Assembly (NCBI GenBank): GCA_002256245.1
Contig: NKIU01000003.1
Span: forward strand, 496,001 to 560,000
Origin: Pseudorhodobacter sp. PARRP1
Lineage (GTDB): Bacteria; Pseudomonadota; Alphaproteobacteria; Rhodobacterales; Rhodobacteraceae
Direction of reading: 5' to 3'
DNA: 64,000 nt
The notes under the pieces were generated by a model. That model was given only the letters and a program-made list of their open reading frames with translations, ran no database searches and had not been told where the DNA came from. Shown piece after piece: positions 14,139-43,649 of this stretch; position 1 is the stretch's first letter, and each line of letters starts with the position of its first letter. A program made the position numbers and the translations under genes.

Positions 14139-14148
14139 TCTGTCGGAT

Positions 14149-14234
14149 GCCTCCGGCGGGGATATTTAAGAACGGGTGAAATCAGAAGCGCGCCTCTGGT
14201 TCATCCTCTCTGCTTAAATATCCCCGCCGGAGGC
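14149..14234. repeat. 22-base inverted repeat, GCCTCCGG family
   Basis: A 22-base arm (14149-14170, GCCTCCGG through TTTAAG) is perfectly inverted at 14213-14234, with 42 bases between. It fills the gap between convergent manB and the altronate dehydratase gene, and could act as a two-way transcript end. Confidence 0.85.
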
Positions 14235-14255
14235 TTCGAGATTGATGCAGGGTGC

Positions 14256-15779
14256 CTACATCACAGCCCCAATCTGCCATGGCACGAACTCGGCGCCGCC
14301 GAAGCCCAACTCTTCCGAGAAGGTGCGCTGACCGGACGCCACTGCGATGACTTTCTCAAGGATTTCAGCGCCTTTTGCGGCGATGCTCACCCCGTTTGTG
14401 AGGATGTCGCCGCAGTTGATGTCCATGTCTTCGGCCATGCGGTTATACATCTCGGTGTTGGTGGCGAGTTTGATGCAGGGGCTGGGTTTGTAGCCCGAGA
14501 CTGATCCGCGCCCGGTGGTGAAGATGATCATTGTGGCCCCGGAGGCGATTTGGCCAGTGACGGAACAGGGATCGTAGCCGGGGCTGTCCATATAGGTGAA
14601 GCCGGGGGTGGTGATGGGTTCGGCGAATTTATAGACGCCGACCAAGGGGGCGGTGCCGCCTTTGGCAACCGCGCCGAGCGATTTTTCTAAGATCGTGGTC
14701 AGGCCACCCTTTTTGTTACCGGGGGATGGGTTGTTGTCCATCTCGCCGCCGTTGCGGGCGGTGTAGTCTTCCCACCACTGGATGCGCTCTAGCAGTTTTT
14801 CACCAATCTCGGCAGAGACGGCGCGGCGGGTCAGCAGGTGTTCGGCGCCGTAAATTTCCGGCGTTTCCGACAGGATTGTGGTGCCGCCCATCTGCACCAG
14901 CAAGTCGGACATATGTCCGAGTGCCGGATTGGCGGTGATGCCGGAGTAACCATCCGAGCCGCCGCATTGCAGGCCGATCATCAGCTTGGACACTGGCGCG
15001 GGGGCGCGGGCGGTCTGGCTGGCAACCTCTGCCATCTCGCGCAGAACCTTCAGGCCAGCGGCAATCGTGGCACGCGTGCCGCCGGTTTGCTGGATGGTCA
15101 TGTAGCGGAAATTGCCATCTGGGCGCAGCCGGCCCTGGCCGACCAGATCGGGCACTTGCATGACTTCGCAGCCCAAGCCGACCAGCAGGATGCCGCCGAA
15201 ATTGGCGTTGCGGGCATAGCCTTTCAGGGTGCGCATCAGGGTGTCGTAGCCTTCATTCACCCCCGACATGCCGCAGCCGGTGTTGTGCACGATGGGCACA
15301 AAGCCGTCGATGTTCGGCATCGACGACAGCACGGGGTCTTTCTCGGCCGCCTCGGCGATGAAGCGGGCGACCGAGCCAGAGCAGTTCACCGATGTCAGAA
15401 TCCCGATGTAGTTGCGGGTGCCGACCTGCCCATCAGCGCGGTGATAGCCCATGAATTCGCGCGGGGCGATGCTGGGCAGGGGATGGCATTCCGCGCCTAT
15501 GGCGTAATCGTCGGTATGCGGCCCCATGCCAAGGTTGTGGCTGTGGATATGCGCGCCGGGGGCAATGTCACAGGTGGCTTCGCCGATGATCTGGCCATAG
15601 CGGATCACCTGCTCGCCCGCAGCAATCGGACGGGTGGCGATTTTGTGGCCACGGGGAATCGCTTGGGTGGTGGCGACATCAAGCCCGCCCGGCTGTGCTC
15701 CGGCAGGCAGATCGACCAAGGCGATCACCAGATTATCGGCTGAATTCAAGCGTATCACGTTCTGATTGCTTTGTAACAT
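14256..15779 (-). CDS. uxaA: altronate dehydratase family protein (UxaA)
   Basis: A 507-residue UxaA-family dehydratase. An N-terminal SAF domain (about residues 10-90, including HKIATRPIAAGEQVIRYG) precedes the large catalytic domain with FMGYHRADGQVGTRNYIGIL, VHNTGCGMSG, LQCGGSDGYSGITANPALG and TTGRGSVSGYKPSPCIKLA; the conserved cysteines are probable iron-binding residues. The family removes water from altronate, galactarate or related sugar acids, giving 2-keto-3-deoxy acids. It is divergent from a GntR-FCD gene with a palindromic operator in the 52-base gap, so GntR control is likely. The exact sugar acid is open. Confidence 0.88.
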   Translation of the reverse strand: MLQSNQNVIRLNSADNLVIALVDLPAGAQPGGLDVATTQAIPRGHKIATRPIAAGEQVIRYGQIIGEATCDIAPGAHIHSHNLGMGPHTDDYAIGAECHPLPSIAPREFMGYHRADGQVGTRNYIGILTSVNCSGSVARFIAEAAEKDPVLSSMPNIDGFVPIVHNTGCGMSGVNEGYDTLMRTLKGYARNANFGGILLVGLGCEVMQVPDLVGQGRLRPDGNFRYMTIQQTGGTRATIAAGLKVLREMAEVASQTARAPAPVSKLMIGLQCGGSDGYSGITANPALGHMSDLLVQMGGTTILSETPEIYGAEHLLTRRAVSAEIGEKLLERIQWWEDYTARNGGEMDNNPSPGNKKGGLTTILEKSLGAVAKGGTAPLVGVYKFAEPITTPGFTYMDSPGYDPCSVTGQIASGATMIIFTTGRGSVSGYKPSPCIKLATNTEMYNRMAEDMDINCGDILTNGVSIAAKGAEILEKVIAVASGQRTFSEELGFGGAEFVPWQIGAVM

Positions 15780-15818: not shown

Positions 15819-15837
15819 CTAACATGTTAGCATGTTA
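15819..15837. promoter_or_regulatory. palindromic operator between uxaA and gntR
   Basis: CTAACATGTTAG is a perfect 12-base palindrome (15819-15830). It continues as TAACATG-TTAG-CATGTTA, a seven-base inverted repeat with a four-base spacer (15820-15837). It overlaps the first possible ATG of the GntR gene. The same palindrome recurs at 24469-24480. Confidence 0.7.
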
Positions 15838-16563
15838 CAGTCCGAAGATGCCTTCTCACAAGACCCGATCGCGGCCAATCACCGCCTGCGCCCGCTTGAT
15901 ATGTTCGCCGGTTCGCTGGGCTCAAAAGTCTATCAGACGCTGCGGCAGGCGATCTTGTCGCTTAGCTACCGCCCCGGCGAAATCCTGCGCAAGCCCGAGA
16001 TTTGCGCCGAACTGGGGGTGTCGCGCAGCCCGGTGTCGGATGCGGTGGCGCGGCTGGCGTCGGAAGGCTTGGTTGATGTGGTGCCACAGGCGGGCACCTA
16101 TGTGGCGCGGTTTTCGATGGATGAAATCCGCGAAGGCGCGTTTGTGCGCGAGGCGATCGAGTTGCAGGCGATTGAGCGGGTGGCCGAAACCATCACCGAC
16201 GAGCAGTTGGTGACGCTGCGGCGCAACATCACGGTGCAGGCGGCGTTGCTGGCCGATGGCGATTTTCCGGGTTTTTACCAGTTGGACGGCGAGATGCACG
16301 AGTTGATCCGCAGCTTTACCGGCTATCGCAAGCTGTCGGTGGTGGCGGAAACCGCTTGGGTGCATGTGGAGCGCGCGCGGCGGTTGGTGCTGCCGGTGGA
16401 TGGCCGGGTGCAGGCGACGCTGGACGAACACCGTGCTATTCTGGCCGCCGTTGAGGCGCGCGATCCGCAGGCGGCACGGGCGGCGATGCGGGTGCATCTG
16501 AGCAAGCTGCTGACCTATCTGGAGCCGCTGGAGCGCAGCCATCCGGAGTTGTTCAACCCGTAA
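15832..16563 (+). CDS. GntR family regulator, FCD subgroup
   Basis: A 243-residue regulator. The winged HTH spans about residues 30-95 (LRQAILSLSYRPGEILRK, ELGVSRSPVSDAVARLASEG), followed by an all-helical FCD ligand domain with the metal/ligand residues in REAIELQAIERVAE and LDGEMHELIRSFTG. FCD regulators usually respond to sugar acids or related organic acids and repress neighbouring genes. The first ATG overlaps the palindromic operator, so the start may be the in-frame ATG at 15901. It is divergent from uxaA and probably controls the wider cluster to 28.9 kb, where related operator sequences occur. Confidence 0.88.
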   Translation: MLQSEDAFSQDPIAANHRLRPLDMFAGSLGSKVYQTLRQAILSLSYRPGEILRKPEICAELGVSRSPVSDAVARLASEGLVDVVPQAGTYVARFSMDEIREGAFVREAIELQAIERVAETITDEQLVTLRRNITVQAALLADGDFPGFYQLDGEMHELIRSFTGYRKLSVVAETAWVHVERARRLVLPVDGRVQATLDEHRAILAAVEARDPQAARAAMRVHLSKLLTYLEPLERSHPELFNP

Positions 16564-16659
16564 ACGGTGGCGGTGCGGGCCGTGTCGGATTGCGGCACAG
16601 CCGTGGTTTTCTCCGCCTTGGGCCTCGCACAGAAGATGTCACTTTTAGCCCGTATCTGG

Positions 16660-17679
16660 TCAAATCGGCGCATCGGGGTGCAGCAGGCCTTGGGCCTTCA
16701 GATCGGCCCAGAGGGCGGCCGGAATATCCGCGTTTGCGGCGCGCGCGTTGCTGTCCATCTCGGCCACCCCCTGACCGCCGGGGATGATCGACACCACCGC
16801 CGGGTGGCGCAGCGGAAACTGGAAGGCGGCATCGACAAGGCGCGCGCCATGGGCCTCGCACGCGGTTTGCAGGGCGGCGGTGCGGGCAAGGATGTGGTCG
16901 GGCGCGGGGTCGTAGTTGTAGAACGCGCCGGGTTTTGGGCCGGTGGCAAGCACGCCGGAATTGTAGGGCCCGCCGATGATGATACCCACACCGCGCCGCT
17001 GCGCGAGGGGCAGAAAGCTGTCGAGGGCCGCTTGTTCGAGCAGCGTGTAGCGCCCGGCAAGCAGAAACAGGTCGAAATCGCCGCGTTCCAGCAGCCATTG
17101 GCAGGGCTCCCACGCGTTCACGCCCGCGCCGAAGGCCTTGATCACGCCTTGGTTGCGCAACTCCAGCAGGGCGCGGTAGCCGCCTGACATGAATTCGTTC
17201 AGCCGCGCGTCAAGAGCAGATGGGCTGTGGTGGTTGGCAAGGTCAAGATCGTGGGCATAGAGGATATCGACGCGGTCAAGCCCGGTGCGCTGCAGGCTGG
17301 CATCAAGGCTGCGCAACACGCCGTCATAGCTGTAGTCGTATTCCTCGCGCCGGGCAGGCACGTCGAACCACTTGCCAATCCCGTCGCGCTGATCGGGCGG
17401 GCAGGGGCGCAGGTGGCGGCCGATCTTGGTGGAAATCACATAGGCATCGCGTGGCTTGTCGCGCAGGAAATGGTTCAGCCGGGTTTCCGACAGGCCCAGC
17501 CCATAAAGCGGCGCGGTGTCGAAATAGCGCACGCCTGCGGCCCAGGCGCGGGCCAGCACGGCTTGGGCATCTGCTTCGGAAATCGCGCGGTAAAGGTTGG
17601 CGATCGGGGCCGCGCCAAAGCCGAGTTCGGTGAAATCGAGGCCGCCGTTGCCCAAGCGATCCCAATGTCTGATGCGCAT
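16660..17679 (-). CDS. aldo/keto reductase, L-fucose/D-threo-aldose dehydrogenase type
   Basis: A 339-residue NAD(P)-dependent oxidoreductase of the aldo/keto reductase fold. The active-site segment YFDTAPLYGLGLSETRL holds the catalytic aspartate and tyrosine, with the lysine in VISTKIGRHL and the histidine position in ILYAHDLDL. The overall pattern resembles D-threo-aldose 1-dehydrogenase, L-fucose dehydrogenase and pyridoxal 4-dehydrogenase, which oxidise C1 of an aldose to a lactone. Such a lactone would give the sugar acid that a UxaA-type dehydratase uses, which fits its neighbours. It is divergent from the BtpA operon with an operator-like site between. The substrate is inferred. Confidence 0.85.
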   Translation of the reverse strand: MRIRHWDRLGNGGLDFTELGFGAAPIANLYRAISEADAQAVLARAWAAGVRYFDTAPLYGLGLSETRLNHFLRDKPRDAYVISTKIGRHLRPCPPDQRDGIGKWFDVPARREEYDYSYDGVLRSLDASLQRTGLDRVDILYAHDLDLANHHSPSALDARLNEFMSGGYRALLELRNQGVIKAFGAGVNAWEPCQWLLERGDFDLFLLAGRYTLLEQAALDSFLPLAQRRGVGIIIGGPYNSGVLATGPKPGAFYNYDPAPDHILARTAALQTACEAHGARLVDAAFQFPLRHPAVVSIIPGGQGVAEMDSNARAANADIPAALWADLKAQGLLHPDAPI

Positions 17680-17698
17680 GTCTGCCCCCTGCTTTTCA

Positions 17699-17710
17699 CT
17701 GACATGCTAG
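17699..17710. promoter_or_regulatory. diverged copy of the CTAACATGTTAG operator
   Basis: CTGACATGCTAG differs from the perfect palindromes at 15819 and 24469 at two positions. It is flanked by CACT/AGTG, which adds dyad symmetry, and lies midway between the divergent aldo/keto reductase and BtpA genes. Confidence 0.5.
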
Positions 17711-17772
17711 TGTGTTCTCGCTTTCCAGCCAATCGCTTTCGCCTTAGCCTGCCGCAAAACGGGAGGGTTTTT

Positions 17773-18582
17773 ATGACACGGTTTGCGCAGGTGTTTGGGG
17801 CAAAAAAGCCGGTGATTGCGATGGTGCATCTGGGGGCGATGCCGGGCACGCCGCTGCATGATGCCGATGCCGGGGTCGAGGGCATCATTGCGGGCGCTGC
17901 GGCCGATCTGGCCGCTTTGCAGGCAGCGGGCTTTGATGCGGTGATGTTTGGCAATGAAAACGACCGGCCCTATGAGTTGAAGGTCGATGCGGCTTCGACA
18001 GTGACGATGGGCTATGTGATTGGCCGCCTGCGCGGCCAGATTGCGGTGCCGTTCGGGGTGAATGTGCTGTGGGACCCGATGGCGACGATGGCCTTGGCGG
18101 CGGCGACGGGTGCGCAGTTTGTGCGCGAGATTTTCACCGGCACTTATGCGTCCGACATGGGCGTCTGGGCGCCGGATGCGGGGGCGGCTTTGCGCTATGG
18201 CCAGCGCATTGGCGCGGGCGGGGTTGCGAAATTGTACAACGTTTCGGCAGAGTTCGCAGGCTCACTTGATCCGCGCAGCTTGCCGGACCGGGCGCGCTCG
18301 GCGGTGTTTTCCTCGATCCCCGATGCCGTGCTGGTGTCGGGGGCGATCACTGGCGAGGCCGCGCGGATGGTTGATCTTGAAGCGGTGAAGCGGGTGCTGC
18401 CGAATACGCCCGTGCTGGCCAACACCGGCGTCAAGCATGACACCGTGGCGGAAGTGCTGCGGGTGGCGGACGGCTGTATTGTTGGCTCGGCGCTTAAACA
18501 CGGCGGCGACACTTGGGCGGCGGTGGACCCCGCCCGCGCGCGTGATTTCATGGACCGCGTGCGGGCAGTCAGGGGGGCATGA
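17773..18582 (+). CDS. BtpA/SgcQ family protein
   Basis: A 269-residue TIM-barrel-like protein of the BtpA family, which includes E. coli SgcQ. Typical blocks are PVIAMVHLGAMPGTPLHD, MFGNENDRPYELKVD, VPFGVNVLWDP, FVREIFTGTYASDMGVW and the C-terminal VANTGVKHDT-like LANTGVKHDTVAEVL with GCIVGSALKHGG. The biochemical activity of the family is not established; BtpA was named for a photosystem I assembly role in cyanobacteria, while SgcQ lies in a sugar operon. The ATG follows GGGAGGG. It begins an operon in which each next start overlaps or nearly overlaps the previous stop, as in sgc loci. Confidence 0.85.
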   Translation: MTRFAQVFGAKKPVIAMVHLGAMPGTPLHDADAGVEGIIAGAAADLAALQAAGFDAVMFGNENDRPYELKVDAASTVTMGYVIGRLRGQIAVPFGVNVLWDPMATMALAAATGAQFVREIFTGTYASDMGVWAPDAGAALRYGQRIGAGGVAKLYNVSAEFAGSLDPRSLPDRARSAVFSSIPDAVLVSGAITGEAARMVDLEAVKRVLPNTPVLANTGVKHDTVAEVLRVADGCIVGSALKHGGDTWAAVDPARARDFMDRVRAVRGA

Positions 18583-19667
18583 TGCGGGATTTGCTGACGG
18601 AACTGATGCTGATACCGGGCCTGTCGGGCTATGAAGAGCGCGTCGCGGGCTGCATCGCGCGCCATCTTGACGGCTTGGGGATCGCGCATCGCTCTGATCG
18701 CTTGGGCAATCTGATCGCGACGATTCCCGGTGATGCCACGGCACCTTCGGTGATGGTGTTCACCCATATGGACCAGTTAGGCTTTATCATCCGCAAGGTC
18801 GAAGACTCGGGCCTCGTGCGGCTGGAACGCTTGGGCGGCGTGCCCGAGCGTGCCTTGGCGGCGCAAGCGGTGCTGATCTGCACCGAAAACGGTGATCTGC
18901 CGGGGCTGATCGCCAACAAAAGCCACCACGCCACCACGCCGGACGAGAAATATCGCGTCGTCCCCTATGCCGAGCTTTACGTCGATGCGGGTTTCGCCAG
19001 CCGGGCCGAGGCCGAGGCGGCGGGGGTGCGCATCGGCTGCCCGGTGGTCTATCTGCCGCGCGTGATCGACCTTGCTGGCGAGCGTTTGGCGGGCACTTCG
19101 GTGGATGATCGTGCCGGCTGTGCGGCGCTGATTGATCTGGCGCGGCGGCTGAACGGGCGCACCGCTGGCCCCACGGTGCATCTGGTCTGGTCGGTGCAAG
19201 AGGAATACAACCTGCGCGGCGTGCTACCTGCGGCGACGGCTTGCGCGCCCGATATCGCCTTGCAGATTGATCTGCTGCTGGCCTGCGACACCCCCGACAT
19301 GACCCAGCGCGGCGAGGTGACTTTGGGCGGCGGGCCGGGGATATCGCTTTATTCTTTCCACGGGCGCGGCACGTTGAACGGGGTGATCCCGCATCCGGCG
19401 CTTGTGCGGTTGTTTGAGGCCGCAGCGGCGGCGCGGGGGTTGCCGCTGCAACGCTCCGCCCATACCGGGGCGCTGACTGACCTGTCTTATATCCAGTTCA
19501 TGGGGGCCGAAGGCGTGGCCTGCCTCGATGTCGGCTTTCCGATGCGCTACAGCCATTCCGCGCTTGAGGTGCTGGACATGCGCGACCTTACAGGCATGGT
19601 TGATCTGCTGGAACAGGCGCTGTCGCAGATCGGCCCCGGCTTTGATCTGTCGCGGAGCCCGCGATGA
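18579..19667 (+). CDS. M42 family metallopeptidase (SgcX/FrvX-like)
   Basis: A 362-residue two-metal aminopeptidase-like protein. Metal ligands appear in order: VFTHMDQLGF (His, about residue 66), SVDDRAGCAAL (Asp, about 175), SVQEEYNLRG (Glu-Glu, about 207), LLACDTPD (Asp, about 230) and MRYSHSALEV near the C-terminus (His). Family members are cytoplasmic aminopeptidases; some were called endoglucanases. In E. coli sgcX and frvX also sit in sugar operons, so a deacylase or glycoside role cannot be excluded. It overlaps the BtpA gene (ATGA) and the following kinase gene by four bases each. Confidence 0.87.
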   Translation: MMRDLLTELMLIPGLSGYEERVAGCIARHLDGLGIAHRSDRLGNLIATIPGDATAPSVMVFTHMDQLGFIIRKVEDSGLVRLERLGGVPERALAAQAVLICTENGDLPGLIANKSHHATTPDEKYRVVPYAELYVDAGFASRAEAEAAGVRIGCPVVYLPRVIDLAGERLAGTSVDDRAGCAALIDLARRLNGRTAGPTVHLVWSVQEEYNLRGVLPAATACAPDIALQIDLLLACDTPDMTQRGEVTLGGGPGISLYSFHGRGTLNGVIPHPALVRLFEAAAAARGLPLQRSAHTGALTDLSYIQFMGAEGVACLDVGFPMRYSHSALEVLDMRDLTGMVDLLEQALSQIGPGFDLSRSPR

Positions 19668-21157
19668 GCTACACCCTTGGTGTCGATATCGGCACGTTTG
19701 AGACCAAGGGTGTCTTGGTGGATGGCACGGGCGTGATTGTCGCCCAAGCCACAAGGTCGCACAAGATGCTGGTGCCGCAATCGGGCTGGGCAGAGCATCG
19801 CGCCGAAGAAGACTGGTGGGGTGATTTTGTTCATGTCACCAAGGCGTTGCTGCGCGATGCTCAGGTAAAGTCTGAAGATATTCTGGCGGTGGCTTGCTCG
19901 GCCATCGGCCCTTGTATGCTGCCGGTGGATGCGCAGGGTGTGCCCTTGATGAACGGCGTGCTTTACGGTGTCGATACGCGGGCTGCGGTGCAGATTGCCG
20001 CGTTGACGGAAAGCATCGGCGCGGATGTGATCATGGATCGCTGCGGCAATGCGCTGACCTCGCAATCGGTGGGGCCCAAGATTTTGTGGCTGAAACAGCA
20101 GCGCCCCGAGATTTACGCGCAAACCGCGATGGTGCTGTCGGCCACGCCGTATCTGACGTGGAAGCTGACCGGGGAATATGTGATCGACCACTATACGGCG
20201 GCGAATTTCTCGCCACTGTATGACGTGAACCGGCTGGCTTGGACGGATGAGATGGCGGGGGGTATCTTGCCGCTGAACCGCCTGCCGCGCCTTGCGTGGA
20301 GCACGGAAATCGCCGGTCACGTGACGGCGCAGGCGGCGGCAGAAACCGGGCTTTCGGTGGGCACTCCGGTGACGGTGGGCACGATTGATGCGGCAGCCGA
20401 GGCGGTGTCGGTTGGGGTGCGCGACGCGGGCGAGATGATGATGATGTATGGCTCGACCATCTTCATCATCCAGTTGACGGCGCTGCCGGTGCGCGATGCG
20501 CGGATGTGGTATGCGCCTTGGCTTTATCCGGGCCAACATGCCTCGATGGCTGGATTGGCGACATCGGGCACGCTGACGCATTGGTTCCGCGACCAGTTCG
20601 CGCGGGAATTGAGAGATGGCGCATTCGGGATTTTGGCCGCCGAAGCGGCGGCCAGCCCGAAGGGGGCGAAGGGCCTGCTGTGCCTGCCGTATTTCTCGGG
20701 CGAGCGCACGCCGATCCATGATCCGGGCGCGGTGGGGGCGTTCTTTGGGCTGAACCTGACGCATGATCGGGGCGACATGTTCCGCGCGGTGCTGGAGGGG
20801 ATCGCTGCGGGGACCGCGCATGTGATGGAGGTTTGTCGCGCACTGGGGGCCGAGCCTGTGCGCGTGCTTGCGGTGGGCGGCGGCACCAAGAACGCGGTCT
20901 GGATGCAGGCGACGTCCGATCTGGGCGGGGTGCCGCAGATCGTGGCCGAGAAAACCATCGGGGCCAGTTATGGCGATGCGTTTCTGGCGGCGGTGGCGGT
21001 GGGGGCGGTGCTGCCCGACGAGATCAGCGAATGGAACCCGGTGGCGCGGGTGGTGCAGCCGGTGGCCGAGCCGGTCTATGCGCGGCAATATCCGCTGTGG
21101 AAACGGCTTTACAGCCAGACGCGCGATATTGCGCATGGATTGGGGGGCGGGGTTTGA
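19664..21157 (+). CDS. FGGY-family carbohydrate kinase
   Basis: A 497-residue sugar kinase with both FGGY domains. The N-terminal phosphate loop is GVDIGTFETKGVLVD; the catalytic Asp region is PLMNGVLYGVDTRAA; the C-terminal half contains VGTIDAAAEAVSVGV, MMYGSTIFI and the FGGY signature-like VLAVGGGTKNAVWMQATSD. The family phosphorylates xylulose, ribulose, fuculose, gluconate and similar open-chain sugars; closest substrate class here cannot be read. It overlaps the M42 gene by four bases and is followed after eight bases by a SIS-domain gene, which fits kinase then isomerase order. Confidence 0.88.
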   Translation: MSYTLGVDIGTFETKGVLVDGTGVIVAQATRSHKMLVPQSGWAEHRAEEDWWGDFVHVTKALLRDAQVKSEDILAVACSAIGPCMLPVDAQGVPLMNGVLYGVDTRAAVQIAALTESIGADVIMDRCGNALTSQSVGPKILWLKQQRPEIYAQTAMVLSATPYLTWKLTGEYVIDHYTAANFSPLYDVNRLAWTDEMAGGILPLNRLPRLAWSTEIAGHVTAQAAAETGLSVGTPVTVGTIDAAAEAVSVGVRDAGEMMMMYGSTIFIIQLTALPVRDARMWYAPWLYPGQHASMAGLATSGTLTHWFRDQFARELRDGAFGILAAEAAASPKGAKGLLCLPYFSGERTPIHDPGAVGAFFGLNLTHDRGDMFRAVLEGIAAGTAHVMEVCRALGAEPVRVLAVGGGTKNAVWMQATSDLGGVPQIVAEKTIGASYGDAFLAAVAVGAVLPDEISEWNPVARVVQPVAEPVYARQYPLWKRLYSQTRDIAHGLGGGV

Positions 21158-21165
21158 AGGATTTG

Positions 21166-21702
21166 ATGCGGGGGGCGCTGGCAGAACTGGCGGCTGTGGC
21201 GGACCGGATGGACGCAGCTGCGGTAGAGGCCGCCTGCGCGCGGATTTTGGGCGCGCGTCGGGTGATGCTTTACGGTTGCGGGCGCGAGGGGCTGATGATG
21301 CGCGCGCTTGCGATGCGGCTTTATCATCTGGGCATCGCGGTTTCGATGCAGGGTGATCTGACCGCGCCGCCCATGCAAGCGGGCGATCTGTTCTTCGCCG
21401 CCTGCGGGCCGGGGGATCTGGCGACGGTCACGGCTTTGGCAGGTGTGGCGCGGGCTGCGGGGGCGGGCGTGTTGATGGTGACGGCAGAGGTTGCCGGGCC
21501 GTCTTTGGCGCTGGCGGATCAGGTTTTGCTGATCCCGGCGCAGACGATGGCGCGCGATGTGGGCGGCGCGTCGGTGCTGCCGATGGGGTCGCTGTTTGAG
21601 GGCGCGATGTTTCTGGTGTTTGAGATCATGGTGCTGCGCCTGCGCGATCTGAAGGGCGAAGCGGTAGGGGATATGCGGGCGCGGCACACCAATATGGAAT
21701 GA
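21166..21702 (+). CDS. SIS-domain sugar-phosphate isomerase-like protein
   Basis: A 178-residue single SIS-domain protein, resembling 6-phospho-3-hexuloisomerase and related enzymes. The opening repeats AAAVEAACARILGARRVMLYG, and YGCGREGLMMRALAMRLYHL with ACGPGDLATV take the place of the usual Gly-Ser-Gly phosphate loop, so phosphate binding may differ. The C-terminal RHTNME matches the isomerase end motif. The ATG at 21166 has AAGGA four bases before it; a TTG at 21154 overlapping the kinase stop is an alternative start. It closes the BtpA-M42-kinase operon; an inverted repeat follows. Confidence 0.82.
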   Translation: MRGALAELAAVADRMDAAAVEAACARILGARRVMLYGCGREGLMMRALAMRLYHLGIAVSMQGDLTAPPMQAGDLFFAACGPGDLATVTALAGVARAAGAGVLMVTAEVAGPSLALADQVLLIPAQTMARDVGGASVLPMGSLFEGAMFLVFEIMVLRLRDLKGEAVGDMRARHTNME

Positions 21703-21806
21703 GGTCCCGATGCGGGCCTGCAAATGCTGGCTTTGAAATCAATGGCTTGGTGTGGCTCAGTAGGGGTTTGTTCACTTTGAAACCTGCGCGCGCGGTCCGT
21801 GTGGAA

Positions 21807-21886
21807 GCCTCCGGCGGGAGTATTTGGACCAAGGTGAAGCTGCGGGTGTTTCGACTTCACTTTGGCCTAAATACTCCCTGCGGAGC
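21807..21886. repeat. imperfect inverted repeat, GCCTCCGG family variant
   Basis: GCCTCCGGCGGGAGTATTTG through AAGGTGAAG (21807-21840) is matched in inverse, imperfectly, by CTTCACTTTGG through CTGCGGAGC (21855-21886). It lies between the convergent SIS and ribokinase genes and probably ends both transcripts. Confidence 0.7.
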
Positions 21887-21914
21887 ATTCCGAACCAGAC
21901 ATCCTCGGGCGCTT

Positions 21915-22847
21915 TCAGGAATTCGCCAGCAGCGCGTCGATCTCGGCACGTGACGGCATCGACGGGGCGGTGCCTGCGCGGGTGACGGAAATGCCTGCGG
22001 TGGCGCAGCCAAAGCGCACAGCGTCAATCACATCGCGGCCTTCCGAGAGTGCGACGGCAAAACCGCCGTTGAACGCATCACCCGCGCCGGTGGTTTCCAC
22101 CACTTTGCCCGCCGAGATCACCGGCACATGCACCGAGCGGGTGCGGTCACGGTAAAGCGCGCCCTTGTCGCCCAAGGTCATCACCACCGCCCCCACGCCG
22201 CGCGCGAGCAGCGCGTCGGCGGCGATTTCTGCTTCAGAAATCGTGGTGACGGGCAGGCCGGTCAGGGCCTCGGTCTCGGATTCGTTGGGGGTGACGTAGT
22301 CGCACAGCGCCAGAATGTCATCGCCAAGTGTTGCAGCGGGGGCGGGGTTCAGGATGGTGGTAACGCCTGCCGCGCGCGCGATTTCCAGCCCGTGTTTGGC
22401 GGCGGGGATCGGTTGTTCCAACTGCGTGATGAACACCGCAGCCGAGCGGATCAGATCGGCTTTTTCCGCCACATCCGCCACCGAAACCCGGCCAGCGGCA
22501 CCGGGCGAGACGATGATTGCATTGTTGCCGGTGGCGTCTTCCAGAAAGATGAACGCCGCCCCGGTGTAGCTTTCAGCGTCGATCTTCACCTCGGGGATCA
22601 CGCCAGCCTTGGCCCAAGTCGCCCGCGCGATATCGGCGAAGGCATCATCGCCCAAACGAGTGATGAAATGCGTTTTGCCCCCCGCCATCGCCGAGGCGAC
22701 GGATTGGTTTGACCCCTTGCCGCCCGGCCCCAGCACGAAGGATTTGCCAAGAATGGTTTCGCCCATCTTCGGCATCCGGTCGGCGCGATAGGCGGTGTCG
22801 GCGACGAAAATTCCAAGGTTTACAATAGGTTTGGTGGCGTTGCTCAT
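21915..22847 (-). CDS. rbsK: ribokinase-like PfkB sugar kinase
   Basis: A 310-residue PfkB-family kinase. The first signature is VLGPGGKGSNQSVASAMAG near residue 40 and the second, with the catalytic aspartate, is VETTGAGDAFNGGFAVAL near residue 255; TPNESETEALTGL is a further ribokinase block. It should phosphorylate ribose or a related pentose or hexose at the 5- or 6-position in the cytoplasm. It begins one base after the FucU/RbsD gene, giving the classic rbsD-rbsK type pairing, and both are downstream of the ABC ATPase gene on the same strand. Confidence 0.88.
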   Translation of the reverse strand: MSNATKPIVNLGIFVADTAYRADRMPKMGETILGKSFVLGPGGKGSNQSVASAMAGGKTHFITRLGDDAFADIARATWAKAGVIPEVKIDAESYTGAAFIFLEDATGNNAIIVSPGAAGRVSVADVAEKADLIRSAAVFITQLEQPIPAAKHGLEIARAAGVTTILNPAPAATLGDDILALCDYVTPNESETEALTGLPVTTISEAEIAADALLARGVGAVVMTLGDKGALYRDRTRSVHVPVISAGKVVETTGAGDAFNGGFAVALSEGRDVIDAVRFGCATAGISVTRAGTAPSMPSRAEIDALLANS

Positions 22848-22848
22848 G

Positions 22849-23304
22849 TTATTTGGCCTCTGGCGGCACGACGCCTTTGCGCAGCATGAAGCAGCCGTAG
22901 AAGCGACGCTCGCCGGTCTGGATCACCGCATAGGCGGTGCGCGCCATGTCGTAGAAGGCAAACCGCTCGATCGAGATCATCGGCCGCACGCCGCCTTCGG
23001 CCGCGTTGATTTCGGCCTGCACTTCGCCTTGCACGGGCGGGATTTCATCGGGGGCGCCGACCACTTCCATGCGGCCTGCAAAGTCGGGCACAAAGGTATC
23101 CAAAGGATAAACCGACAGGATCGCCTGCGCGGCTTCGGCGCTGGTAAGGTTGTCCATCCGCAGCAGTTTGCCCGTCACCGTGGCGCGGGCGACCGAGTCG
23201 GACGGAAAGTTGGTGTCAGCCAAGATCAACACATCACCGTGGCCCATCGCGCGCAGGCAATGCAGCACTTCCGCGTTCAAGCGCGGGTCAATTCCTTTGA
23301 GCAT
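22849..23304 (-). CDS. FucU/RbsD family sugar mutarotase
   Basis: A 151-residue protein of the RbsD/FucU family, which speeds the change between anomers or pyranose and furanose forms of sugars entering the cell. The catalytic His is at residue 22 in AMGHGDVLILADTNFP, and the C-terminal FYGCFMLRKGV block is typical of FucU. It lies between the ABC ATPase (45 bases upstream) and the ribokinase (one base downstream). A paralogue of identical length closes the divergent permease operon at 28427, so the cluster has one mutarotase on each arm. Confidence 0.9.
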   Translation of the reverse strand: MLKGIDPRLNAEVLHCLRAMGHGDVLILADTNFPSDSVARATVTGKLLRMDNLTSAEAAQAILSVYPLDTFVPDFAGRMEVVGAPDEIPPVQGEVQAEINAAEGGVRPMISIERFAFYDMARTAYAVIQTGERRFYGCFMLRKGVVPPEAK

Positions 23305-23348
23305 GATGCCCTCCCTTTTGGGTTACTGTGCTGGATTTGCGCGAAGCG

Positions 23349-24401
23349 TCAAGAGATGCGCTGGCCCGTGGCCTTGTCGAACAGATGCGCTTTGCTGGCA
23401 TCCGGCGCGAGAGTGACGCCGTCACCGGGGCGAAAGCTGACGCGGTCGCGGAACACGGCGGTGACTTCGCGTGCGCCCAACCGCACGATGACATGGGTTT
23501 CCGATCCGGTCGGTTCGACCACGGCGATGGTGCCTGCCAAGCCTTCGGCCGCGGCGCTGAAGGTCTCGGGGCGCACGCCGTAAACCACTTGCTGGCCTTC
23601 GCTGGCGGTTGATCCCGGCGGCAGCGCCAAGCGCGCGCCGTCCACATCAACCATGCCGCCCTTCACCACGCCGTCGATCAGGTTCATCGAGGGCGAGCCG
23701 ATGAAGGTGGCGACAAACACATTGGCGGGGCGGTCGTAGAGTTCCAAGGGCGCGCCGACCTGTTCGATGCGCCCGCCTTGCAGGACGACAATCTTGTCGG
23801 CCATGGTCATAGCCTCGATCTGATCATGGGTGACATAGACCGTGGTGGTTTTCAGGCGCTGGTGCAACTCTTTGATTTCGGCGCGCATTTGCACGCGCAG
23901 TTTGGCGTCGAGGTTCGAGAGCGGCTCGTCAAACAGGAAGACTTTCGGATCGCGCACGATGGCGCGGCCCATGGCGACGCGTTGGCGCTGGCCACCCGAA
24001 AGTGCGCGCGGGAAGCGATCGAGATAGGGGGTGAGGCCCAGAATTTCGCCGGCGCGCTCGACTTTGGTGCGAATCGCCGACGGCTCCATCCCGCGCATTT
24101 TCAGCGCAAACCCCATGTTGGCGGCGACGGTTTTATGCGGGTAAAGCGCGTAGTTCTGAAACACCATGGCGATGTCACGCTCGGACGGTGGGAGATTGTT
24201 CACACGCGCCGCACCGATGTTGATGTCGCCGCCGGTGATTTCCTCCAATCCCGCCAGCATCCGCAGCAGGGTGGATTTGCCGCACCCCGAGGGGCCGACC
24301 AGCACGACAAACTCGCCGTCCTTGATATCAAGGTTCAGGCCGCTGATCACTTGCACCCCGCCATAAGACTTGCGCAGATCGCGGATTGTGACTTCGGCCA
24401 T
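23349..24401 (-). CDS. ABC sugar transporter ATPase (MalK/UgpC type)
   Basis: A 350-residue ATPase: Walker [12 protein letters not shown] near residue 36, Q-loop [14 protein letters not shown], signature [14 protein letters not shown], Walker [14 protein letters not shown], switch histidine [12 protein letters not shown], then a C-terminal TOBE-type regulatory domain from about residue 235. It energises the two MalF/MalG-type permeases encoded on the other strand from the shared control region. The chosen ATG follows GGGGGG about six bases upstream; an earlier in-frame start at 24425 is less likely. FucU and ribokinase genes follow in the same direction. Confidence 0.92.
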
Positions 24402-24468
24402 GTGTTTCCCCCCAGTTGTTGCCACAAGAATAGTCAGGCCGGGGGGCGCTGTCTATCTGCTGATCATA

Positions 24469-24480
24469 CTAACATGTTAG
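24469..24480. promoter_or_regulatory. perfect CTAACATGTTAG operator in transporter control region
   Basis: The 12-base perfect palindrome is identical to the core at 15819-15830 upstream of uxaA/gntR. It sits 68 bases upstream of the ATPase gene and 180 bases upstream of the binding-protein gene, so it can serve both arms. Confidence 0.7.
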
Positions 24481-24659
24481 AATCTTGACAGGGGCTTTGG
24501 CAGAGGCCAAGCTACGGCCAAGGAATGGGACCGCAGCAGGAGGGGAGGCCTGTTTGCCCGGCGTGATCAAGCGGTTTGTCATGCTCATTCTACAGCGATT
24601 TCGGCAAAACAACAGCCCAGCGGCGTTTGCTGCGCAAGGGCACCAAGGGAGGAGACGTC

Positions 24660-26297
24660 TTGAAAGTAGAACTTTATCAGGCCGCAGTTCAGGCCACACT
24701 CAGCCGCCGTCGCATGTTGCAGGGCGCGACCGCCCTGACCGCATTGGCGCTGATGCCGAAGGTGATGGGCTACGGCCCGGCGATGGCGCAAGATTCGGTG
24801 CGCGCGCAGATCCTGCAAATTCCGGGCGTGGGCAAAGGCAGCCCCACGGATGCCGATTGGCAAAAAGTGGGCGAGATGTGCCTCGACAGCACCAAGGCCA
24901 ACGTCGCCGAGGGCGAGTTTGCCGGGGTTGAGCTGACGTTCTTTGGCATCAACAACAACGGCTTGCACAACATCCTGTTCCGCGGGTTGCTGAAAGGCTG
25001 GGAGACTTATACCGGCGCCAAGATCAACTGGATCGACCTTGCGCAGGCCGATTACAACGGCCGCTTGCAGCAAAGCATCGCCACCGGGACGGTCGATTTC
25101 GACATTCTGGCGATGGGTGCTCCGCTGGAGGGCGACACCGCCAGCAAGGGCCTGCTGGATGAGATGCCGGATTGGGTGAAAACCCAGATCGACATGGACG
25201 ATTACGTGAACTACCTCAAAGCCCCGGTCGGCACGTGGGATGGCAAGACCTACCGCATCTCGATCGATGGCGATTGCCACACCTTCGCGTATCGGACCGA
25301 TTACTTCGGTGACGGCGCTATTTCCGGCATGGCAGAGCCGCCCAAGACCTGGCAAGAGGTCAACGCCTATTCCAAATCCATCGTTGGCAAGACCGACCCG
25401 CTGACCGGCCAGCCCGCGATTGGCTATCTGGACCCGCTGAAGGGCTGGGGTGGCTTTGGCTTCTACTTCCTGGAAAACCGCGCGACCGCCTATGTCAAGC
25501 ATCCGTCCGATCCGGCTTGGCTGTTTGACCCGGACACGATGAAACCGCGCGTCAACAACCCGGGTTGGGTGCAGGCCATCCAAGACGTGATGGACCTGAT
25601 CGCCACCCCCGGCGCCTATCCGGCAGACCAGATCAACGCCGATCCGGGCACCACGGCGTTCTCGCAGTTCCTGGCGGGCACCGGTTCCAGCCTGATGTGG
25701 TGGGGCGATGTGGGCTCGAACGCGCGCACGTCCGATACTTCTGTGGTGGGCGACGTGGTGGGCTTTGGCATCAACCGCGGCTCGGACAAGGTGTATAACT
25801 CGAAAACCGCGGCTTGGGAGGAGACTTACAACGAATCCCCCAACATGGCCTTCCTTGGCTGGGGCGTTTATGTGACCAACCGCGTCTCGGCGGATGAGAA
25901 AAAGCGCAAGGCGGCTTGGTCGGCGGCGGCGCATCTGGGTGGCAAGGATATCTCGCTGTGGATGGCGGCCTATCCGTCGGGCTTCCAACCCTACCGCAAC
26001 AGCCAGTTCCAATACGACGAATGGGTGGCCGCAGGCTATGACAAGGCGTTCATCGAGGATTACCTCGGCTCGAACCTTGACAGCTACAACCACCCCAACG
26101 CCGCAATTGAACCGCGTATCCCCGGCATCTTCCAATACTATTCGGTCGCCGAGGACGAATTGGCCAAGGGCTATTCCGGCCAATACAAATCGGCACAGGA
26201 AACCGCCGATGCGATTGCCGCGGCTTGGGAGAAGATCACCGATCAGATCGGGCGGGATGCGCAGATCAAGCTGTATAAGGCCAGCTTGGGGATGTGA
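24660..26297 (+). CDS. ABC transporter solute-binding protein (family 1, Tat-exported)
   Basis: About 545 residues, large for a family 1 sugar-binding protein. A TTG start is chosen because AGGGAGGAG lies about six bases upstream; no in-frame ATG has such a site. The N-terminus holds SRRRMLQGATALTALALMP ending AMAQ, a twin-arginine signal, so the protein folds before export to the periplasm. WIDLAQADYNGRLQQSIATG and LMWWGDVGSN resemble family 1 sugar binders. It supplies the MalFGK-type importer encoded here. A REP-like inverted repeat separates it from the first permease. The ligand is unknown but probably a sugar handled by the nearby kinases. Confidence 0.85.
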   Translation: MKVELYQAAVQATLSRRRMLQGATALTALALMPKVMGYGPAMAQDSVRAQILQIPGVGKGSPTDADWQKVGEMCLDSTKANVAEGEFAGVELTFFGINNNGLHNILFRGLLKGWETYTGAKINWIDLAQADYNGRLQQSIATGTVDFDILAMGAPLEGDTASKGLLDEMPDWVKTQIDMDDYVNYLKAPVGTWDGKTYRISIDGDCHTFAYRTDYFGDGAISGMAEPPKTWQEVNAYSKSIVGKTDPLTGQPAIGYLDPLKGWGGFGFYFLENRATAYVKHPSDPAWLFDPDTMKPRVNNPGWVQAIQDVMDLIATPGAYPADQINADPGTTAFSQFLAGTGSSLMWWGDVGSNARTSDTSVVGDVVGFGINRGSDKVYNSKTAAWEETYNESPNMAFLGWGVYVTNRVSADEKKRKAAWSAAAHLGGKDISLWMAAYPSGFQPYRNSQFQYDEWVAAGYDKAFIEDYLGSNLDSYNHPNAAIEPRIPGIFQYYSVAEDELAKGYSGQYKSAQETADAIAAAWEKITDQIGRDAQIKLYKASLGM

Positions 26298-26305
26298 TCC
26301 TGCTG

Positions 26306-26362
26306 GGTGCGTGAAATCACGCACCCTACAATGACACCGTAGGGTGCGTGATTTCACGCACC
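26306..26362. repeat. REP doublet (two palindromic arms, inverted)
   Basis: Arm 26306-26329 (GGTGCGTGAAATCACGCACC then CTAC) is the exact reverse complement of arm 26339-26362, with a nine-base spacer. Each arm also folds on itself as GGTGCGTGA/TCACGCACC. This is a BIME-like REP pair of a different family from the GCCTCCGG elements, placed between the binding-protein and permease genes. Confidence 0.9.
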
Positions 26363-26388
26363 TTACTTTTCTCGGACGGGGCATTACC

Positions 26389-27495
26389 TTGAGCGGTTCA
26401 GGCGATCTTTTACACGTTGTCAGCAATGACAACATCTCGGATCAGCGCCGCGCGCTGGGGCGGGGCATCATCTGGGGTTCGGCCGCGCTGATGCTGGCGG
26501 TGGCTTGCGCGCAGGTATTGCAACTGCAAGGTGTGCATGACTTTGGCCTGACCAGTTGGCGCCCGACGCTGTATGCCTATATCCTGTGGGCGATTTGCCT
26601 GAGTTGGGGGCAGGTTTTGCTGCATGGCGAGCATGGCAAGCGCACGCTTTTCGTGCTGCCTGCGGCGCTGTTTGTGATCTCGCTGACGGTTTTTCCGCTG
26701 CTGTTTGGCCTTGTGATCGCGTTTTCCGACTGGAATCTGTCCAGCCCCGATGGGCGGCAATTCAACGGGCTGACCAACGTGCGGCAAATGTGGGCCGACC
26801 CGTTCTACTGGAACGCATTGCTGAACATGCTGTGGTATGTGCTTGCGATCCTTGTGGAATATACGATTGCCTTTGGCCTGGCGCTGGCGCTGAACGCCGA
26901 GATCCGGGCGCGGAAATTCTTTCGGGTGGCGTTTTTGCTGCCCTTGATGCTGTCGCCGGTGGCGGTCAGTTGGATGATCGGCAAGTCGATGCTTGAGGCC
27001 CGTTTTGGCCCCGTCGCACGGCTGGCGCGGTTCTTTGGCTGGGAGACGCCGTCGTTCTTCGGCACCCCCGGAGTGGCCAAGGCCACGATCATGCTGATGG
27101 ACGCCTGGACGTTCATTCCGTTTATGATGATCATGATTTTGGCGGGCTTGCAGGCGATCCCGAAAGAGTTGAACGAGGCTGCCAAGGTTGATGGCGCGAA
27201 CGGCTGGCGGGCGTTTTGGGAGGTGACTTTTCCGATGATGCTGCCGGTGTCGATCACCGCCATCCTGATCCGGATTATCTTCAAATTGAAGCTGGCCGAT
27301 ATCGTGATCGCGGTCACATCCGGCGGGCCGGGCGGGGCGACCGATACGGTGACCTCGTTCATTTTCCGCGAGTATCGCGATCGGTCTAACGTCGGTTACG
27401 GCACGCTTTTGGCGATGTTTTACTTGCTGGTCATCATCATTTTCATGACGATTTTGATGAAGCTTGCGGATCGGTTTGCGAGGCCCAGAACATGA
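26389..27495 (+). CDS. ABC transporter permease (MalF type)
   Basis: An integral membrane protein of about 368 residues with roughly eight membrane segments. The cytoplasmic EAA loop that contacts the ATPase is ELNEAAKVDGANGWRAFWEV near residue 250. The N-terminus adds two membrane spans before the core, as in longer MalF-type proteins. The start is a TTG just beyond the REP doublet; no ATG follows within a plausible distance, and earlier codons lie inside the REP arm. It pairs with the MalG-type permease, whose ATG overlaps its stop by four bases. Confidence 0.85.
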   Translation: MSGSGDLLHVVSNDNISDQRRALGRGIIWGSAALMLAVACAQVLQLQGVHDFGLTSWRPTLYAYILWAICLSWGQVLLHGEHGKRTLFVLPAALFVISLTVFPLLFGLVIAFSDWNLSSPDGRQFNGLTNVRQMWADPFYWNALLNMLWYVLAILVEYTIAFGLALALNAEIRARKFFRVAFLLPLMLSPVAVSWMIGKSMLEARFGPVARLARFFGWETPSFFGTPGVAKATIMLMDAWTFIPFMMIMILAGLQAIPKELNEAAKVDGANGWRAFWEVTFPMMLPVSITAILIRIIFKLKLADIVIAVTSGGPGGATDTVTSFIFREYRDRSNVGYGTLLAMFYLLVIIIFMTILMKLADRFARPRT

Positions 27496-28427
27496 GTAAA
27501 GCTGACATGAGCGATGTGCAGATTTTCAAGGATTCCGCCGCCGACCGCAGCTTTCGCCCCAAGTGGTTTACAGCACGGCTGTTTGTCTATGCGCTGCTGC
27601 TGCTGTGGGCGTTTATCTGTTTGTTTCCAATCTATTGGACGCTGACCACCAGCTTCAAGATGGCGCCCGATGTGATGAAGGGCAATCTGGTGCCGTGGTG
27701 GGATTTCACCCCGAAATGGCTGGGCTGGAAATCGCTTGGCCTGTCGCCCGACACGATTGGCGCCGAAAGCACGGTGCGGGATGAGTTTTTGAAGCGGTTC
27801 GCCAATTCGGCGATCACTTCGGTGACATCGTCTGTGTTGGCGGTGATGCTGGGGTCGCTGGCGGCTTATGGGCTGAGCCGGTTCAACTATAAATTCCTGT
27901 GGATGCGCAACAGCGACATTTCGTTCTTTTTCCTAAGCCAACTGATCCTGCCTCCGGTGGTTTTGGCGCTGCCGATGCTGGTGCTGTATAAGGAACTCGC
28001 CCTGCTGGACACCCGTATCGGCTTGATTTTGCTTTACACTTTGTCGGTGCTGCCGATTGTGATCTGGATCATGCGCGATCAGTTTTCCTCGATCCCGACC
28101 GAGTTGGAAGAGGCGGCTTTGGTCGATGGCCTGTCGATCTGGGGCGCGTTCATCACCATCATTCTGCCGATTGCGTTGCCGGGGATGGTGGCTGCGTTCA
28201 TTCTGTCGCTGGTGCTGACGTGGAACGAGTATTTCTTCGCGGCGCTGCTGACCTCGACCCATGCCAACACTTTGCCGGTGATGGTGGCGTCGCAGACCGG
28301 AAGCCAAGGGATTTCGTGGTGGTCGATGGCGGCGCTGTCTTGGGCGGCGATCTTGCCGTTGATCGTGATTGGTGTGGTGCTGGAACGCTATATTATCAAG
28401 GGCATGGCGGCGGGGGCGATCAAGTAA
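27492..28427 (+). CDS. ABC transporter permease (MalG type)
   Basis: A 311-residue membrane protein with six predicted spans (first LFVYALLLLWAFICLFPIYW). The EAA loop is TELEEAALVDGLSIWGAFIT near residue 205, and the end LERYIIKGMAAGAIK is typical of MalG-type subunits. With the MalF-type permease and the ATPase at 23349-24401 it forms the inner-membrane importer. It overlaps the upstream permease gene by four bases, and its TAA shares one base with the ATG of the FucU-like gene that follows. Confidence 0.9.
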   Translation: MSKADMSDVQIFKDSAADRSFRPKWFTARLFVYALLLLWAFICLFPIYWTLTTSFKMAPDVMKGNLVPWWDFTPKWLGWKSLGLSPDTIGAESTVRDEFLKRFANSAITSVTSSVLAVMLGSLAAYGLSRFNYKFLWMRNSDISFFFLSQLILPPVVLALPMLVLYKELALLDTRIGLILLYTLSVLPIVIWIMRDQFSSIPTELEEAALVDGLSIWGAFITIILPIALPGMVAAFILSLVLTWNEYFFAALLTSTHANTLPVMVASQTGSQGISWWSMAALSWAAILPLIVIGVVLERYIIKGMAAGAIK

Positions 28428-28882
28428 TGCTGAAGGGAATTGATCGGCACCTGTCGGCGGAACTGGTGCATGTGCTGATGCTGATGGGGCATGGCGATAC
28501 GATGGTGATCTGTGATGTGAACCATCCGGCGGCGACGATTGCCGCCAAAACGACCCATGGCCGGCTGGTGGATATGGTGGGCTGCGATATTCCCACCGGG
28601 TTGGCCGCGATATTGACACTGATGCCGCTGGATACCTTTGTCGATGCCCCCGTCGCGCGGATGCAGGTGGTGGGCAATCCGGGCGCGCAGGTGCCGGTGT
28701 TTGGGCTGGTGCAGGCGGTGGTGGATGCCGCCGAAGGCCGCGCAATCACGGTCGAAGCGTTGGAGCGGTTCGCGTTTTATGAGGCGGCAGGGCGGGCCTT
28801 TGCCATCGTGCGCACCTCTGATCCGGGGCCTTATGGCTGCTTCATTGTGAAAAAGGGCGTGGTGGAGTTGCCGCGGCTTTAA
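28427..28882 (+). CDS. FucU/RbsD family sugar mutarotase, second copy
   Basis: A 151-residue mutarotase, identical in length to the copy at 22849-23304 but clearly diverged. The catalytic His is again residue 22 (MLMGHGDTMVICDVNHP), and the end reads YGCFIVKKGVVELP. Its ATG overlaps the permease stop (TAATG), so it is translated with the importer. Two mutarotases on opposite arms could serve two anomeric steps or two sugars. Its 3' end overlaps the convergent Dpp-type ATPase gene by four bases, leaving no room for a terminator. Confidence 0.88.
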   Translation: MLKGIDRHLSAELVHVLMLMGHGDTMVICDVNHPAATIAAKTTHGRLVDMVGCDIPTGLAAILTLMPLDTFVDAPVARMQVVGNPGAQVPVFGLVQAVVDAAEGRAITVEALERFAFYEAAGRAFAIVRTSDPGPYGCFIVKKGVVELPRL

Positions 28883-43606: not shown

Positions 43607-43623
43607 TTTAGCCTGAGGTTTGG

Positions 43624-43649
43624 CATCGGCCAGAGCGATCTGGCCGATG
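43624..43649. repeat. hairpin between ytfQ and ytfR
   Basis: CATCGGCCAGA (43624-43634) and TCTGGCCGATG (43639-43649) pair perfectly over a GCGA tetraloop, 17 bases after the ytfQ stop. No T run follows, so it most likely protects the ytfQ mRNA end or damps read-through. Confidence 0.75.

Follow-up and report, generated by a model that had tools for sequence, protein, structure and literature searches.

Extracts of the relevant papers describe the systems that lie closest to the locus considered here: the nonphosphorylating bacterial L-fucose pathway with FucM, FucA, FucB, FucC, FucF and FucG (PMC11199699), and the Escherichia coli sgc operon (sgcXBCQAER; PMC5797941, PMC13343008), whose substrate, as far as these extracts go, was still unassigned in 2026. 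In an extract of PMC6336799, members of the UxaA family act on D-arabinonate and, by gene context, on L-fuconate and L-galactonate, and a characterised aldo/keto reductase (AKR) of another bacterium takes D-arabinose, L-fucose and L-galactose as substrates. Here we analyse a cluster of sugar transport and catabolism genes around a GntR-FCD regulator in Pseudorhodobacter sp. PARRP1 (4.35 Mb in 28 contigs; labelled G000), contained in a stretch of 64,000 nucleotides (positions 496,001 to 560,000 of contig NKIU01000003.1; hereafter the window), which a first-pass annotation had read as one undescribed sugar pathway under one operator.

The genes are laid out as uxaA (−), gntR (+), AKR (−), btpA-M42-FGGY-SIS (+), ribokinase-fucU1-malK (−) and binding protein-malF-malG-fucU2 (+). 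Like the nonphosphorylating L-fucose pathway, the cluster has a FucU-family protein, an AKR and a UxaA-family dehydratase by the regulator, while homologues of the lactonase, the 2-keto-3-deoxy-L-fuconate (L-KDF) dehydrogenase and the diketo-acid hydrolase occur in relatives' clusters, with an SDR/FAH pair elsewhere in this genome; it differs from that pathway in that lactonase, SDR and FAH are absent from the window and that the importer, kinases, BtpA, M42 and SIS genes share the operator. With the sgc operon it has in common the pair of BtpA/SgcQ and M42/SgcX (47.6% and 35.7% identical to the Salmonella copies), but a CUT1 importer, an FGGY kinase and an HxlB-like SIS protein take the place of the phosphotransferase system (PTS) and the ribulose-phosphate-epimerase-like gene, and the regulator is GntR-FCD instead of DeoR. 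The Salmonella record holds M42, sgcB, sgcC, sgcQ, an epimerase-family gene and DeoR; neither PTS nor ribulose-phosphate-epimerase (SgcE) families were among the Pfam matches of the cluster. With somewhat more confidence than doubt, we read this locus as an L-fucose regulon controlled by a GntR-FCD repressor, with CTAACATGTTAG as its predicted binding site, and composed of an oxidative arm and an sgc-like phosphorylative branch. L-fucose is, from the families and neighbours involved, the likely substrate of one arm; a single new pathway is unlikely, and the locus is better described as a regulon of separable modules than as a proven single pathway. Gene content, a conserved operator and conserved neighbours were observed directly and are described below.

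The 4.35 Mb genome has just two exact copies of CTAACATGTTAG, and both are in this cluster. Allowing 2 mismatches, the window contains three matches against 0.36 expected, a number that was reached in 0 of 100 shuffles, and the palindromes previously noticed in three promoter gaps are indeed present, two of them exact and one with 2 mismatches. Across the whole genome, the same tolerance gave 19 places versus 52 for a reversed control pattern, so that at this scale only exact copies stand out, and the two-mismatch copy at 17699 counts only because of its position and conservation. One further site (C27:8943, one mismatch) precedes two proteins that by eye resemble xylulokinase and xylose isomerase; by eye, no genes of this kind were seen near the two-mismatch sites at C3:70888 and C10:163685.

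The same palindrome recurs at the same promoters in relatives. In 80 loci fetched by BtpA similarity (1.39 Mb in total, each at most ~21 kb; gaps scored where both genes adjoin), the operator was found within 2 mismatches in 41 of 41 gntR/uxaA gaps (38 exact), in 36 of 37 malK/binding-protein gaps (29 exact) and in 55 of 63 AKR/btpA gaps (14 within one mismatch, 2 exact). These loci contain 79 exact copies, compared to a mean of 0.025 for 40 permuted-arm palindromes, and 178 copies within 2 mismatches, compared to 2-20 for 10 permuted-arm palindromes; one match falls inside a labelled gene. Some relatives have 0.6-3.3 kb inserted in the malF/binding-protein gap; in the two that were examined (L018 and L020, at 16.8-20.4 kb), the extra DNA codes for a large membrane protein with multiple spans and for a 209-amino-acid protein. 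Seventeen operator copies were seen in this gap, mostly immediately ahead of malF, as if a new promoter there preserved the regulon.

In a survey of 295 genomes of the family, exact CTAACATGTTAG is carried by 37 genomes at 55 sites, 45 of which lie within 2.5 kb of a GntR orthologue or a binding-protein gene; the remaining 10, near neither, are about background when compared with the reversed control pattern (13 sites in 13 genomes), and two of them (G158, G180) adjoin GntR relatives below the orthologue threshold (nine of the 10 regions were retrieved, all except G289:C3:84227). Orthologue and exact site are found together in 29 genomes, and the exact site accompanies no GntR at threshold in 8. 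Since both the GntR helix-turn-helix and the FCD domain were matched, the regulator belongs to the GntR-FCD class, and its binding to the palindrome is predicted from the conservation and the position of the sites.

Genomes in which the cluster is split argue for common control. A single contig of G280 carries both the GntR locus and, 367 kb away, the importer, with an exact site at each. Devosia G296 has a 40% identical GntR with uxaA and FAH (L148) apart from BtpA and importer (L054), again with an exact site at both. Devosia G295 repeats this arrangement, its site being exact at GntR/UxaA (L149) and off by one mismatch at the importer (L052). In G304, a GntR-UxaA-AKR locus with an exact site (L150) is separate from a BtpA locus with a one-mismatch site ahead of btpA (L088). 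The earlier proposal of one operator is thus backed by conservation of the site in three promoters and in genomes that have the units apart (G280, G296, G295), and on balance there is a strong case, built on site conservation, that the two halves would form one regulon.

The L-fucose half is best recognised from its neighbours in relatives. Loci L043 and L046 have the gene order FAH-SDR-UxaA-GntR-lactonase-AKR, an arrangement that matches the nonphosphorylating L-fucose route as outlined in the extract of PMC11199699, and L063 and L085 have the same order minus the lactonase. Within the 80 loci, FAH (at least 67% identity to the L015 protein) was found in 7, SDR (at least 63%) in 10 and, by open reading frame (ORF) clusters, a lactonase homologue near the AKR in 26; the L048 copy of the latter scores 205.6 bits against a cut-off of 400, and its solved-structure match was 4dlf only. 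UxaA, SDR and FAH surround the GntR orthologue in G089, G243, G053 and G043, which have no BtpA. A further 20 regions were selected for GntR without importer, split genomes and stray sites; 6 of these (L154, L155, L156, L157, L169 and L170) hold GntR, its site, UxaA, SDR and FAH together (the GntR position in L154 was taken from a separate GntR homologue search), and among the six BtpA is in the region only in L170. In L155 (G243) two proteins, sulfatase-like by eye, flank the L-fucose block, an arrangement that would be consistent with L-fucose being freed from sulfated polysaccharides. In 39 of 51 genomes, GntR has a UxaA homologue (E <= 1e-200) no more than 4 kb away. In L015, L017 and L057 no uxaA is present in the locus, and an enolase-superfamily protein stands behind an operator copy (1, 1 and 2 mismatches, respectively); the L015 protein matches L-fuconate dehydratase 1yey at 548 bits, third after 4ip4 and 4a35. 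G280 holds both kinds of dehydratase on different contigs, and the swap is therefore not universal. L-fuconate, L-galactonate, D-arabinonate and D-altronate share a common C2-C4 configuration, which makes such a dehydratase swap reasonable and leaves L-galactose and D-arabinose as possible substrates; a D-altronate dehydratase family is said to have been reported by Watanabe in Molecular Microbiology in 2019.

The proteins of PARRP1 itself are placed less sharply by curated models: UxaA scores 373.7 with the galactarate dehydratase model, below its cut-off of 730.85; the best solved structures for the AKR are L-galactose dehydrogenases (E 1.1e-31); and FucU1 and FucU2, at 88.4 and 65, miss the cut-off of 141 of the L-fucose mutarotase equivalog model. 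An SDR and an FAH gene lie side by side 31 kb downstream of the window (G000:C10, ~590-592 kb; locus L147). The best structures for the SDR are the L-KDF dehydrogenases 8y11/8xwk (316 bits), and that for the FAH protein is 8gsr, an L-2,4-diketo-3-deoxyrhamnonate hydrolase; the lactonase candidate of this genome reaches 98.1 bits. From these families and conserved neighbours, the oxidative arm would run as follows: a FucU protein would interconvert L-fucose anomers, the AKR would oxidise L-fucose to the lactone, a lactonase (encoded next to the AKR gene in relatives, absent from the window here) would open it, the UxaA-family enzyme would dehydrate L-fuconate to L-KDF, and an SDR plus an FAH-family hydrolase, for which the adjacent pair 31 kb downstream are the probable candidates, would yield pyruvate and L-lactate.

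The second module consists of the importer, FucU1 and the ribokinase-like kinase, and would take up and phosphorylate a second aldose or a sugar arriving with fucose. The binding protein is present at 69% identity or more in 55 of the 295 genomes; a PDB sequence search with it returned no match, and its AlphaFold model has a predicted local distance difference test (pLDDT) score of 41.8. The closest counterpart is a Rhizobium CUT1 importer-LacI-FucU-ribokinase operon (e.g. on pRLG204), which resembles this unit in binding protein (79% identical), permeases (65-73%), MalK (64%), FucU (59%) and kinase (57%), but has a LacI regulator, and the annotation around it shows neither L-fucose genes nor BtpA, M42 or FGGY. 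Three Rhizobium plasmids viewed have malK, binding protein, permeases, LacI, FucU and ribokinase, and one Agrobacterium and one R. leguminosarum combine a 68% identical binding protein with FucU proteins, a ribokinase and a xylose-isomerase-like protein. No CTAACATGTTAG within 2 mismatches was found in five Rhizobium/Agrobacterium stretches. We also noted a unit of CUT2-type importer, RpiR-type regulator, second PfkB kinase and xylose-isomerase-like gene in L176 (Agrobacterium, 16967-23431) and L016 (589-6920), which by eye adjoins the present cluster in a Rhodobacter metagenome-assembled genome.

The third module pairs BtpA and M42 with the FGGY kinase and the SIS protein. BtpA is 96-97% identical to Cypionkella copies; at a 65% identity threshold it was counted in 44 of the 295 genomes, 41 of which also have the binding protein at 69% or more (BtpA at 47-55% identity, found in 6 of 50 genomes, and partial or weaker binding-protein matches were excluded from these counts); 22 GntR genomes were tallied without BtpA, and four of these (G040, G068, G085, G140) hold a distant BtpA. 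By ORF clusters, M42 is present in 78 and FGGY in 73 of the 80 BtpA loci, some contigs ending early. Recurrent in relatives and not found here are a xylose-isomerase-like gene (47 loci), a creatininase-family gene (40), a second PfkB kinase (29) and the lactonase homologue (26). The idea that SIS and creatininase genes are interchangeable after FGGY was not supported: in 67 loci where FGGY is near-complete and followed by 2.5 kb or more of sequence, the next 2.6 kb held SIS only in 6, creatininase only in 28, both in 4 and neither in 29 (the other 13 of the 80 were not countable). Further afield, in records of Labrenzia, Shinella, Rhizobium and Thermus, BtpA is accompanied by an FGGY kinase, an SDR and an importer; M42 does not appear in the annotation table of these stretches, which is incomplete.

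Structure prediction places BtpA among TIM barrels (pLDDT 83.3), and Foldseek relates it only broadly to barrels that bind phosphate (KDPGal aldolase, TrpA, HisF), at template modelling scores of about 0.55-0.6; a PDB sequence search gave no match. The modelled barrel fold, together with the company of a kinase or PTS, suggests a sugar phosphate as substrate. The SIS protein is a near full-length match to HxlB, the 6-phospho-3-hexuloisomerase of the ribulose monophosphate pathway, but remains below the curated cut-off and has no HxlA among the families of the cluster; it scores 21.9 against a Pfam cut-off of 25, and its PDB matches include YckF and a 3-hexulose-6-phosphate synthase entry. We propose that FGGY, BtpA, M42 and the HxlB-like SIS protein could form an sgc-like phosphorylative branch leading to a ketose phosphate of central metabolism. 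More tentatively, and with doubts that outweigh our confidence, BtpA/SgcQ-M42-FGGY might be an undescribed phosphorylative route for an L-fucose conjugate or an L-fucose-like sugar, in which BtpA and M42 would process the kinase product and the same chemistry would operate in E. coli sgc. The roles of BtpA and M42 are the least certain of all those proposed. The claim that the sugar belongs to no known operon is contradicted for the GntR/UxaA/AKR/FucU genes, which in relatives form a nonphosphorylating L-fucose operon, but may yet hold for BtpA-M42-FGGY-SIS and the importer.

Several observations weigh against an L-fucose regulon with two arms. The window has no lactonase, SDR or FAH, and L147, the locus of the SDR/FAH pair, has no operator within 2 mismatches; as it has its own enolase-superfamily dehydratase, second SDR and lactonase-family protein, it may serve another sugar such as L-rhamnose, and its FAH matches the model of the L-rhamnonate-type hydrolase, at 411.2 against a cut-off of 500. 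An exact site is missing from 22 of 51 GntR genomes; among the 80 loci, 11 have no copy within 2 mismatches, including the importer-bearing Devosia loci L062 and L081; and in G228 the sole exact site is at GntR, with importer and BtpA on another contig. Three of the 10 exact sites near neither GntR nor binding protein (L161, L163 and L166) have no orthologous GntR beside them and lie by what by eye resemble TRAP operons with other GntR genes, and other GntR-FCD proteins may thus share this operator. The one genome of the same genus that was sampled (G247) is without GntR, BtpA and a close binding protein. Finally, importer, FucU and kinase stand together in Rhizobium with neither L-fucose genes nor operator, so fucose is not necessarily the sugar that the importer carries, and the substrate of this unit may be another aldose.

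These last findings are in line with the possibility that two or more co-regulated sugars are met together, for instance L-fucose and a second monosaccharide built into one polysaccharide; fucose would then be burned by the oxidative arm and the other sugar by the arm of importer, ribokinase, FGGY and BtpA. We put its probability a little short of even; it overlaps with the explanation we favour, which leaves the second substrate free. Modules that occur separately speak for it, namely importer, FucU and ribokinase with LacI in Rhizobium, the Agrobacterium importer with FucU, ribokinase, isomerase and second kinase, the L-fucose block without BtpA in G089, G243, G053 and G043, and BtpA with FGGY and SDR in Labrenzia, Shinella, Rhizobium and Thermus, but a functional tie is suggested by the company of BtpA and binding protein in 41 of 44 genomes and by the sharing of the operator where the cluster is split. 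A single linear pathway, undescribed and devoted to one unusual sugar or sugar acid, as conceived in the first-pass annotation, would account for a single regulon and for tight clustering in relatives; nevertheless it appears quite improbable, and we abandoned it as the leading interpretation, since either block, L-fucose or importer-ribokinase, can be found without the remaining genes and the L-fucose block of relatives is already complete by gene content. Splitting of neighbours in relatives, which had been named as the sign against a common pathway, was seen in part: Rhizobium plasmids have importer, FucU and ribokinase with LacI alone, and some Rhodobacteraceae have the L-fucose block but not BtpA.

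Alternatively, the phosphorylative arm could be a D-arabinose or D-ribose route of import, mutarotation, ribokinase-like phosphorylation and SIS isomerisation, with the oxidative arm taking the same aldose through the dual L-fucose/D-arabinose specificity of such dehydrogenases. The kinase falls only narrowly under the ribokinase (RbsK) cut-off of TIGR02152 (294.7 versus 299.65), the AKR of another bacterium in the extract of PMC6336799 takes D-arabinose as well as L-fucose and L-galactose, and the Rhizobium unit, LacI aside, consists of importer, FucU and kinase only. This scheme leaves FGGY, BtpA and M42 unexplained, however, and a SIS gene follows FGGY within 2.6 kb in just 10 of 67 loci, and we regard it as doubtful. 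In light of these comparisons we retain the L-fucose regulon with an sgc-like branch, in which repression, the reactions and the substrates are all predictions.

Pfam profiles on translated ORFs recovered all the gene families named in the first-pass annotation. Its interval, 15819-28882, does contain 13 genes including the regulator, but misses uxaA, which ends 40 bases to the left of the interval's start (Table 1). Past fucU2, a Dpp/Opp-type transporter lies on the opposite strand. By eye, alike inverted repeats (CCTCCGGCGGG...TATTT and complement) are found at ~14145-14240 and ~21800-21895, at the convergent ends of phosphomannomutase/uxaA and SIS/ribokinase, and are probably bidirectional terminators or a repeated element; GTGCGTGATTTCACGCAC repeats were likewise seen at ~26300-26370 in the binding-protein/malF gap. 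Elsewhere in the window, 42638-46217 and 51837-55153 encode two CUT2-type sugar importers, the second adjoining a ROK-family gene at 55367-56644 (genes partly read by eye).

Table 1. Genes and operator copies of the cluster, in window coordinates. The start of the binding protein was read by eye; the queries used 24651-26297, three codons longer.
Feature	Position	Strand	Match or remark
UxaA/GarD-family dehydratase, 507 amino acids, proposed L-fuconate dehydratase	14256..15779	-	Pfam GD_AH_C 340 bits
Operator CTAACATGTTAG, exact, uxaA/gntR gap	15819..15830	.	one base ahead of gntR ATG
GntR-FCD regulator, proposed L-fucose regulator	15832..16563	+	Pfam FCD 94 bits, GntR 64.4 bits
AKR, proposed L-fucose 1-dehydrogenase	16660..17679	-	Pfam 143.1 bits
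Operator variant CTGACATGCTAG, 2 mismatches, AKR/btpA gap	17699..17710	.	
BtpA/SgcQ family protein, 269 amino acids	17773..18582	+	NCBIfam TIGR00259 243.1 bits, cut-off 153.4
M42 metallohydrolase, SgcX-like	18579..19667	+	Pfam 234.7 bits
FGGY carbohydrate kinase	19664..21157	+	Pfam; best NCBIfam model XylB 282.3, cut-off 380.25
SIS protein, HxlB-like, 182 amino acids	21154..21702	+	TIGR03127 143.7 (E 5.3e-42), cut-off 160
PfkB-family ribokinase-like kinase	21915..22847	-	TIGR02152 ribokinase 294.7, cut-off 299.65
FucU/RbsD-family protein 1	22849..23304	-	Pfam 117.9 bits; PDB 2ob5 (Atu2016) E 1.2e-62
MalK/UgpC-type ABC ATPase	23349..24401	-	NF008653 493.7, cut-off 432
Operator CTAACATGTTAG, exact, malK/binding-protein gap	24469..24480	.	
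Large CUT1-type solute-binding protein	24660..26297	+	Pfam SBP_bac_1 39.3 bits
MalF-type permease	26344..27495	+	Pfam 58.2 bits
MalG-type permease	27492..28427	+	Pfam 58.9 bits
FucU/RbsD-family protein 2	28430..28882	+	Pfam 107 bits

In the literature, as far as the extracts at hand extend, we recognised no publication that describes this cluster, and it was not identified in the extract of PMC10203303. Taken together, our comparisons single out the orphan sgc-like branch, apparently co-regulated with the L-fucose genes, as the part worth testing. In named strains of Cypionkella, Tabrizicola, Devosia and Stappia, among others, the BtpA-M42 pair and a recognisable L-fucose pathway are joined by a common operator. 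Candidate substrates of BtpA/SgcQ are thereby narrowed to L-fucose and to its stereochemical analogues and conjugates, and the cluster supplies both promoters and strains with which such substrates can be tested.

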